A DNA stretch of 64,000 bases from Aliiroseovarius sp. S1339 (GTDB lineage Bacteria; Pseudomonadota; Alphaproteobacteria; Rhodobacterales; Rhodobacteraceae): NCBI RefSeq assembly GCF_023195695.1, contig NZ_JALPQG010000001.1:558001-622000 (forward strand). The letters run 5' to 3'. Both the position numbers and the translations under genes were made by a program. Under the pieces are notes generated by a model. The model had not been told where the DNA came from. It saw only the letters and a list, made by a program, of their open reading frames with translations, and ran no database searches. Shown here one piece after another: positions 12,650 through 15,392 of the stretch (the stretch's first letter is position 1; every line of letters starts with the position of its first letter).

Positions 12650-14305
<1,656 letters not shown>

Positions 14306-14335: not shown

Positions 14336-14390
14336 CATCGGCGCGAGGCAGTGGATTTGACTTCAAATCCGCGTTCGCGCTTGTTTGCTA

Positions 14391-14419
14391 TTGAAGCTCG
14401 ACGCGGAAGTTCTTATATT
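14391..14419 (+). promoter_or_regulatory. sigma70-like promoter for the 14.4-kb RNA
   Basis: TTGAAG (14391-14396) and TATATT (14414-14419) are separated by exactly 17 nt, predicting a start near 14426. It lies beyond the ettA terminator, so it would drive an independent transcript. Confidence 0.6.
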
Positions 14420-14425
14420 GTTCTA

Positions 14426-14672
14426 GCCCATGGAGGCCGACGAGGTCGGCTGTAGGGAAGGTGCGCCACTCCTTCGGGAACAAGGTTAAACCTGCCCACG
14501 ATCTGGGAAGTGCTTAGCGGCGCTAAGTCGAGTAGCCTAGCGGTGAAAGGCGAAGGACGTCCGAGGCAACTCTGCGAGTGATTCAACGAGCAATGCTAGC
14601 GGGTCGCGCTCCGCTCGAGCAGCCAATCGGCCGAACGGTTGCTCAAACTGCTAGCAAGGGCAGTATAATCCA
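14426..14672 (+). ncRNA. highly structured RNA candidate (family unknown; HEARO/omega-RNA-like is one possibility)
   Basis: About 250 nt with no plausible reading frame but dense nested helices: GCCGAC/GTCGGC (14436-14441 with 14445-14450), CCC/GGG around it, AGGTT/AACCT, CCCA/TGGG, CTTAGC/GCTAAG (14513-14518 with 14522-14527), AGCGG/CCGCT (14598-14602 with 14611-14615), GAGCAGCC/GGTTGCTC (14617-14624 with 14637-14644), and an enclosing TGCTAGC/GCTAGCA (14594-14600 with 14650-14656). A promoter lies just upstream and a terminator at 14825. It is not tmRNA, RNase P RNA, SRP RNA or 6S by motifs I know. The stem layout and stretches such as GGTTAAACCTGCC and GATTCAACGAGCA recall HEARO/omega RNAs, but no IscB/IsrB gene is adjacent, so that is only a guess. 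Confidence 0.5.
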
Positions 14673-14723
14673 CTGAGTGTTCTTTAACGCTCGTGCGCAT
14701 GGGCATCGCTAAGGACAATTCCA

Positions 14724-14819
14724 ATGCGATTTTCATACAAGATAGAGGGGCGAGTGTCATATGGTGACGTTGTTGGAACCATTGCGCTCTTGCTGACAAT
14801 CATCGGCTTGTTCGTTTGA
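14724..14819 (+). CDS. 31-residue single-pass membrane microprotein (candidate)
   Basis: ATG at 14724 with AAGGA (14711-14715) 8 nt upstream opens a 31-codon frame, MRFSYKIEGRVSYGDVVG followed by a hydrophobic helix TIALLLTIIGLFV ending at TGA. The layout, a short basic N-terminus, one 16-18 residue transmembrane segment and an almost immediate terminator, is typical of small bacterial membrane proteins, including regulators and type I toxins. It is the only frame with a proper ribosome site between ettA and the thioesterase. No family recognised; function unknown. Confidence 0.5.
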   Translation: MRFSYKIEGRVSYGDVVGTIALLLTIIGLFV

Positions 14820-14824
14820 ACGTC

Positions 14825-14853
14825 GGGCGGTCTTCGGATCGCCCTTCTTCTTT
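14825..14853 (+). terminator. terminator with UUCG tetraloop after the microprotein
   Basis: GGGCGGTC (14825-14832) pairs with GATCGCCC (14837-14844) around TTCG, then TTCTTCTTT. It begins 6 nt after the microprotein stop and would end the RNA/microprotein transcript. Confidence 0.85.
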
Positions 14854-15002
14854 GGTACACAAGGACAGCGCCTGACCTCTAGGCGGGCGTGAAGCGCCCT
14901 CCCGTGGGGAGGGTCATCTCTCGGTGATTGCAAGCAATCACCTGCCGATCAGCGGGGCGCTGTCCGGTCTATCGACCGGACGGGGCATTGCAGTTTGGGG
15001 CG

Positions 15003-15392
15003 CTACCCCTTCTCCACCGCCACCGGCAGCCCCTTGTCATCCAACGCCACAAACACAAACACCCCTTCGGTGACCTTCTGGCGCTCGCCAAGACGATCGC
15101 GGTTGACCCAGGCTTCAAGCTCAATCGCCATCGACGTGGTGCCGACCCGTCCAACCCGACCATAGACGCACAGCACGTCGCCCACTTTCACCGGCTGGAT
15201 GAATTTCATCGCATTCACCGCGACGGTGGCCACGCGGCCTTGTGCGCGTTCGCCGGCGATGATGCCGCCTGCGATGTCCATTTGGCTCAGCACCCAGCCG
15301 CCGAAGATGTCCCCGGACACGTTGGTATCCTTGGGCATCGCCAGTGTTCTCAGGATGATGTTGCCTTCGGGTGCGGTCTGTTGGTCGCTCAT
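15003..15392 (-). CDS. acyl-CoA thioesterase (YciA-like hotdog fold)
   Basis: 129 residues. It begins MSDQQTAPEGNIILRTLAMP and contains NVSGDIFGGWVLSQMDIAGG, the YciA/BACH-type hotdog signature with the catalytic Asp in QMD, then RVATVAVNAMKFIQPVKVGD. Such enzymes hydrolyse short- and medium-chain acyl-CoAs in the cytoplasm. GAGG lies 5 nt before the ATG. It is followed by the gene-poor region on one side and the hpaR-like gene on the other, 73 bp away on the same strand. Confidence 0.9.
   Translation of the reverse strand: MSDQQTAPEGNIILRTLAMPKDTNVSGDIFGGWVLSQMDIAGGIIAGERAQGRVATVAVNAMKFIQPVKVGDVLCVYGRVGRVGTTSMAIELEAWVNRDRLGERQKVTEGVFVFVALDDKGLPVAVEKG

Follow-up and report, generated by a model that had tools for sequence, protein, structure and literature searches.

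A phage-linked RNA family with two palindromic sites and an embedded micropeptide gene: a candidate self-pairing mRNA

Between ettA and a 4HBT thioesterase gene, the window (the whole stretch of 64,000 nucleotides that was analysed) holds an intergenic unit composed of a promoter-like pair, a folded RNA and a terminator-like hairpin, with a predicted transcript length of ~430 nt including an open reading frame (ORF). Comparative alignment shows that this RNA represents a real family whose helices covary strongly. Our preferred reading, to which we give a probability of roughly 0.5, is a mobile, phage-linked cassette, in which a self-dimerising mRNA would control a membrane-acting micropeptide.

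The unit and its embedded reading frame

The left neighbour of the unit (12650–14305) was assigned to EttA by the NCBIfam EttA models, above cut-off, and the right neighbour (15003–15392, minus strand) is a 4HBT thioesterase, which bears out the setting given in an earlier, sequence-only reading of this DNA. Other neighbours in the window are aldo/keto reductase, MarR and UPF0261 proteins. As that reading had stated, no HNH nuclease gene adjoins; neither among the window neighbours nor among those neighbours of the relatives that were submitted to Pfam or PHROGs was an HNH/IscB-like protein found. The features of the unit, all on the plus strand, are as follows.

14391–14419 (+): sigma70-like promoter, TTGAAG-17-TATATT, from a consensus scan (9 of 12 letters)
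14420–14508 (+): 5′ part of the RNA with hairpins; poorly conserved and outside the covariance models
14509–14524 (+): H1 hairpin, AGUGC-UUAGCG-GCGCU; 98.8% of cells paired, two of five pairs changed on both sides
14529–14556 (+): H2 hairpin and GCGAAGG (GCUAAGG in most copies)
14555–14611 (+): P3 domain (helices 2–4 of the alignment), imperfect in the window copy
14617–14644 (+): H7 hairpin; its loop palindrome CGGCCG (14628–14633) is the predicted kissing site
14645–14666 (+): H8 hairpin (helix 7 of the alignment); one pair is CG in 10 copies and UA in five
14674–14693 (+): H9 hairpin (helix 8; 96.9% of cells paired), sharing GCUC (14689–14692) with H10
14689–14704 (+): H10, 16-nt palindrome GCUCGUGCGCAUGGGC (with G-U pairs), predicted intermolecular duplex
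14712–14715 (+): AGGA, likely ribosome binding site by its sequence, 8 nt upstream of the start codon
14724–14819 (+): 31-codon ORF MRFSYKIEGRVSYGDVVGTIALLLTIIGLFV, likely a single-pass membrane peptide (membrane location judged by composition)
14825–14853 (+): terminator-like UUCG hairpin (14825–14844) and U-rich tail

The sigma70-like promoter with its 17-bp spacer, already proposed from the sequence, was recovered as the single site of its kind against 0.2 expected from shuffles, and the 5′ end of the RNA would accordingly be placed near 14426. Boxes resembling a −10 element and ending 85–90 nt upstream of H1 are also present in four relatives (L039, L041, L043, L073) and are unclear in the remaining copies. 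Of the proposed UUCG terminator, the hairpin itself stands, its stem starting five bases after the end of the ORF in the window copy, while such a site alone is not beyond chance (two found, 1.2 expected from shuffles); a stable hairpin comes after the ORF throughout the 21 copies of the family, with the U-tract left out of the scoring. Overall, the sequence supports the earlier view that this is a transcription unit in its own right, carrying a highly structured RNA.

That reading had seen no ordinary gene in the region and thereby overlooked the conserved ORF at the 3′ end of the RNA. Every one of the 21 copies ends in an ORF with a hydrophobic stretch, followed by the hairpin; its length varies from 28 to 35 codons, with 31 codons in 15 of the 16 aligned copies, 35 in L106 and 28–33 in the five distant copies. 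In L041, L042 and L125, the later of two in-frame ATGs was taken as the start. In a comparison of 15 copies (105 pairs, without L106), codon positions 1, 2 and 3 diverge by 0.336, 0.185 and 0.527, respectively, with a pN/pS of 0.41 (1.63 in frame +2) and no indel. Because of this codon-position divergence, the pN/pS value and the indel-free comparison, the ORF is, by all comparative signs, coding. The basic N-terminal half and the hydrophobic C-terminal half of the peptide suggest one membrane helix. No match to the window peptide was found in Pfam, PHROGs or the PDB, nor to two other peptides in PHROGs and three in Pfam.

Two side observations concern the flanks of the unit. On the ettA side, a hairpin resembling a tRNA-Sec anticodon arm (GACTTCAAATCC, 14340–14379; single copy in the window) borders the slot; similar border hairpins, some with different inner stems, are located at the ettA slot in many relatives, and the element could be an insertion or recombination border. 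On the thioesterase side, downstream of the unit, a second inverted-repeat stretch (GGACAGCGCC ... GGCGCTGTCC, 14865–14975) is conserved and partly common to G004 and G007.

Relatives and conserved fold

The 21 copies comprise 15 from family f1 (the window included), four from viral contigs, one from a Paracoccus replicon and one from a genome of another class (G1119). They were collected along several routes. By DNA similarity, the unit was found in three of 21 Aliiroseovarius genomes (101 genomes searched), with three further matches spanning only ~30 nt around the terminator hairpin. A three-row peptide profile returned 75 of 394 family genomes at E ≤ 1, among which the seven matches with E below 1e-6 all lie in real units (window, G407, G340, G387, G279, G281, G201); the remaining 68 weaker matches were left out of the copy count. 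A first covariance model, built from nine copies, gave 10 matches in 390 genomes of the order at E ≤ 0.1 and 10 in 394 genomes of the family at E ≤ 0.01, eight of them real in each case, and these searches together brought in G552, G579, G654, G672 and G024. Searches at genus level gave 2/62 (adding G958), 1/1, 1/19 and 1/20. Under the strict filters used for the two widest searches, two matches were obtained in 289 genomes of the class, the window alone being real, and two in 299 genomes of the phylum, namely the window and G1119 (E 3e-8, 35.9 bits). The viral copies score 138.9 bits (L090) and 87–96 bits (L121, L122, L123), and the copy in a plasmid record, Paracoccus versutus pBEN, 64 bits. 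The distribution of the family is patchy inside genera; the genome draws overlap and few candidates were scored per genome, which makes absences soft. The very distant copy in G1119 suggests a wider prophage-borne family.

Matches in G320, G364 and G933 and in the viral contigs L080, L083, L085, L087, L089 and L092 were not counted as copies; four of these six viral matches had an E-value of 0.001 or less, in a set preselected by the H1 pattern. Reading of the sequences of L078, L079, L080, L083 and L092 showed that the 3′ half and the ORF are missing, and G933, L085, L087 and L089 were excluded by score or length alone. Other search modes were less productive: tblastn found no peptide relatives in phages and plasmids, peptide profiles gave four and 15 pattern matches in viral contigs with none confirmed, and blastn with the RNA yielded no match in phages (three queries) or E. 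coli genomes (one query) and one real place in plasmids, reached with two of four queries, the other two giving chance matches. Scans of viral contigs with DNA patterns produced 21 matches with one real, further patterns returning the same one, none or three new. As a separate observation, L017 3309–3523 is a mosaic, resembling the G007 copy in its 5′ half and the window copy in its 3′ half, a pattern suggestive of recombination inside the unit.

A structural alignment of 16 copies (15 from the family and L090) was made with a second covariance model. The fit included the nested helices and so favours them, whereas the H7-loop pairs and H10 were absent from the aligning model. For H1, P3, H7, H8 and H9 together with the H7-loop palindrome, 94.1% of 564 cells pair, compared with 82.4% in shuffles; 20 of 37 pairs have changed on both sides, compared with 10.6 in shuffles and 6–8 in slid controls, and all 500 shuffles fall short of the alignment on each of the five measures. 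When H10 replaces H9, 95.0% of cells pair and 23 of 39 pairs show changes on both sides (12.6 in shuffles, 5–9 in slid controls). Strong covariation in relatives backs these helices, while the folding energy of the window RNA is by itself unremarkable (z −1.2; nine of 100 shuffles fold equally well). One helix of the earlier proposal, TGCTAGC/GCTAGCA (14594–14600 with 14650–14656), is not conserved: TGCTAGC is there in none of the 15 other aligned rows, and the right arm overlaps the covarying H8.

Two possible contacts lie outside the nested helices. GCUAAGG, complementary to UUAGC loops and mismatched in the window copy, possibly forms a pseudoknot. Furthermore, AAGU after H1 accompanies GCGAAGG in L037, L106 and L125, most copies having RUGU with GCUAAGG; this co-change, being outside Watson–Crick pairing, hints at a tertiary contact.

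The family has no recognisable counterpart in Rfam. At gathering threshold, no Rfam model, introns and tmRNA included, matched the window, in line with the earlier statement that no housekeeping RNA can be recognised; specifically, no tRNA, tmRNA or Rfam riboswitch was found there. Across 20 copies, the window included and the Paracoccus one set apart, no Rfam model matched within the RNA core at E 1. For the Paracoccus copy, Ms_AS-8, CRISPR-DR20 and CRISPR-DR9 appeared at E 3 with chance-level values (0.76–2.1), none of them HEARO. Weak hits below threshold to RNAI, SpF51, MIR6151 and SorY (E 0.15–4.5) were taken as chance; they fell on the terminator of ettA, the border hairpin and the unit's 3′ end. 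The tRNA, cspA, Leu_leader and other matches near the relatives are sited outside the RNA. These results bear on the suggestion of a stand-alone HEARO/omega RNA that has lost company with its nuclease, which had been made on the impression of a reminiscent stem order. The unit region gave no HEARO match at E 10, none of the 21 copies has an Rfam match of this kind, and a coding ORF lies within the RNA; as far as the models can tell, the idea is refuted, and we regard its probability as negligible.

Palindromic sites and predicted self-pairing

The loop of H7 typically has the form AAG-UGAUCA-UA, and its hexamer is palindromic in all 21 copies despite occurring in eight types: UGAUCA (nine copies), CGGCCG (three, the window among them), GUGCAC (three), UGGCCA (two) and, once each, UGUACA, UAGCUA, CCUAGG and AGCGCU (in L121–L125, the hexamer was picked by eye). 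Likewise, the six central letters of H10 are palindromic in 21/21 copies, in six types, some H10 containing G-U pairs. Within the 16-copy alignment, all three H7-loop pairs change on both sides with 100% of cells pairing, as do five of the eight H10 pairs, again with 100% of cells paired and including two central pairs that are impossible in a hairpin. Out of 115 six-column windows, only these two sites are palindromic in all 16 rows, a state that shuffling of the 3′ half reached in 0 of 20,000 trials for each site.

Each palindromic hexamer occurs once per transcript (16/16) and therefore has no identical partner inside the same RNA. Since adjacent loop letters cannot pair within one chain, the covariation of the H7 loop argues for the pairing of two chains. 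In PMC12286853, covariation in symmetric palindromes is used as the argument for homo-oligomers of the OLE and GOLLD RNAs, and the H7 and H10 palindromes covary in that same manner. Dimerisation of the RNA is, thus, quite probable on comparative grounds. The palindromes might instead act as DNA, i.e., as protein-binding or recombination sites or as single-stranded hairpins; palindromes are typical of protein sites and the locus is mobile, but a binding site keeps its letters, which here come in eight and six types, and the H7 palindrome is the loop of a covarying hairpin located on one transcript with the ORF. This makes a DNA-level role highly improbable.

H9 and H10 are mutually exclusive, and in L106 the shared GCUC covaries with both of its partners (GGGC-GCCC-GGGC). 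Within one chain, H9 is energetically better than H10 in 15 of 16 copies (the exception being L011), with H10 as a hairpin costing 2.4–9.8 kcal/mol relative to the free fold. An isolated H10–H10 duplex, however, is computed to be more stable than two H9 hairpins by 9.8–21.9 kcal/mol in all 16 copies. Refolding from H9 to H10 upon pairing is, on these energies, a proposition for and against which we see equal odds. Simple gating of the Shine–Dalgarno sequence by secondary structure is not supported, as forcing H9 or H10 shifts the predicted openness of the ribosome site by less than 0.1 in 12 of 16 copies; in the others (L011, L017, L073, L077), the change goes in both directions.

The small effect on the ribosome site also weighs against a ligand-sensing, riboswitch-like leader, in which H9/H10 and the contact between H1 and GCUAAGG would switch translation of the peptide. 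Mutual exclusion of H9 and H10 and the conserved unpaired stretches would fit such a leader, but the same kind of peptide is always found downstream and the palindromes are left unexplained, and we consider it very unlikely.

Type I toxin mRNAs (TisB, Hok and others) code for a very small membrane peptide and carry a long structured leader. The unit resembles them in its small hydrophobic peptide, with a membrane location judged by composition, beneath a long structured leader and in having its own promoter and terminator, and its loops could be seeds for a silencing antisense RNA. Unlike in those systems, promoter-like sites give no sign of an antisense gene here, and self-pairing is predicted instead: antisense promoter-like sites number two in 16 copies, at differing places, compared with 2.3 in shuffles, and a palindrome is not required of an antisense seed, whereas the H7 hexamer is palindromic in 21/21 copies. 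An antisense-silenced toxin mRNA is, hence, distinctly unlikely.

Phage links, proposed role and comparison with known systems

In family f1, 12 of the 15 copies lie at most 0.7 kb downstream of ettA (the ettA end of L041 and L120 was read by eye), and those in G387, G654 and G024 are away from it. The end of ettA was read in 17 other Aliiroseovarius genomes, and there the slot is occupied by different ORFs. Ten cargo proteins from 10 of these genomes were compared with PADLOC models, and six of them matched PDC-S14, PDC-S33, a TIR effector (twice), PDC-S21 and PD-Lambda-5, some weakly (L014, 21.8 bits; L021, 32.2 bits); cargo from three more Aliiroseovarius genomes was compared with Pfam only. 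In Aliiroseovarius, the stretch between ettA and the thioesterase gene is a hotspot for cargo, several of its genes being defence-like. The other four slot proteins (L008, L010, L016, L020) have no PADLOC match and are candidate unknown defence genes.

Elsewhere, in L090, a late-activator-like gene, an endolysin and a holin adjoin the copy, with a Mu-type transposase elsewhere on the contig; CI-like repressors lie within ~1.1 kb of the copy in L121, L122 and L124, and a HicB-like gene does so in L123. The G1119 copy (L124 1501–1703) is near an O-like replication gene in addition to its CI-like repressor, while around the Paracoccus copy an ERF gene (E 4e-21) follows at a distance of 2 kb, and 1.4 kb upstream there is a weak HTH match that stays below cut-off. 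The location of the copies is an association only.

Within the preferred reading of a mobile, phage-linked cassette, the RNA would fold, as one transcript, into the conserved core, and two copies would make first contact by kissing of their H7 loops via the 6-nt palindromes. H9 may then refold into a 16-bp intermolecular H10 duplex ending ~20 nt upstream of the start codon, where it could act as a steric block. Self-association of the RNA would in this way control translation, or the membrane placement, of the ~31-residue peptide from the same RNA; such control is an idea that we hold tentatively, at a little under even odds. The peptide probably would act on the membrane in phage–host or phage–phage conflict, as in abortive infection or superinfection exclusion. 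This role, for which genomic location and phage carriage speak, is about as tentative as the control step; the anti-phage or toxin function is put forward as a hypothesis, and toxicity of the peptide as such appears doubtful. A bolder version, which we place on the improbable side, is a one-transcript conflict system without a separate antitoxin, where the mRNA would sense its own copies via the two palindromes and meter a membrane-attacking micropeptide that is released when phage takeover upsets RNA dosage. If this were true, sensing by any one cassette would be restricted to its own kind, given that the eight loop types differ between lineages.

Natural RNA homo-oligomers are rarely observed, according to PMC12286853. 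The present family offers, in a single short RNA that can be made and tested with ease, a pair of sites with eight and six palindrome types and, within the same RNA, a likely membrane peptide. Should the location of the copies be meaningful, the cassette would also constitute an enzyme-free system of defence or phage competition that is invisible to protein-based searches.

No description of this RNA family was found in the titles and abstract openings of open-licence papers. Close parallels are provided by large structured RNAs. OLE RNA has a symmetric kissing tetranucleotide that switches between palindromes (PMC12286853), and its dimer works with the membrane protein OapA, which is encoded next to the RNA (PMC12265935). 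Compared with the present unit, OLE is the larger RNA; it is known from Gram-positive bacteria and has its protein encoded by a separate gene. GOLLD and ROOL share the phage or prophage link and form homo-oligomers through kissing loops (PMC12286853), a property that is predicted here; they are much larger and noncoding. None of the 21 copies is matched by the Rfam models of GOLLD, ROOL or OLE. It is conceivable that the unit is itself a structural RNA machine of this sort, with the RNA multimer as the product and the peptide as a membrane anchor from the same transcript. The covariation of palindromic loops, the phage link and the OLE–OapA partnership are in favour, but the unit is far shorter, carries its ORF inside the RNA and matches no Rfam family, and we rate this explanation as unlikely.

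For the preferred self-dimerising mRNA, the HIV-1 dimer initiation site is an analogy only, as it belongs to an unrelated RNA and serves viral genome packaging. According to PMC7357161, it likewise presents a 6-nt palindrome flanked by purines in an apical loop, its kissing dimer can turn into an extended duplex, and GUGCAC, the hexamer carried by three phage copies of the present family, is one named for this site. To our knowledge, the combination of a predicted self-pairing RNA with an embedded peptide is undescribed; its parts resemble known kinds.
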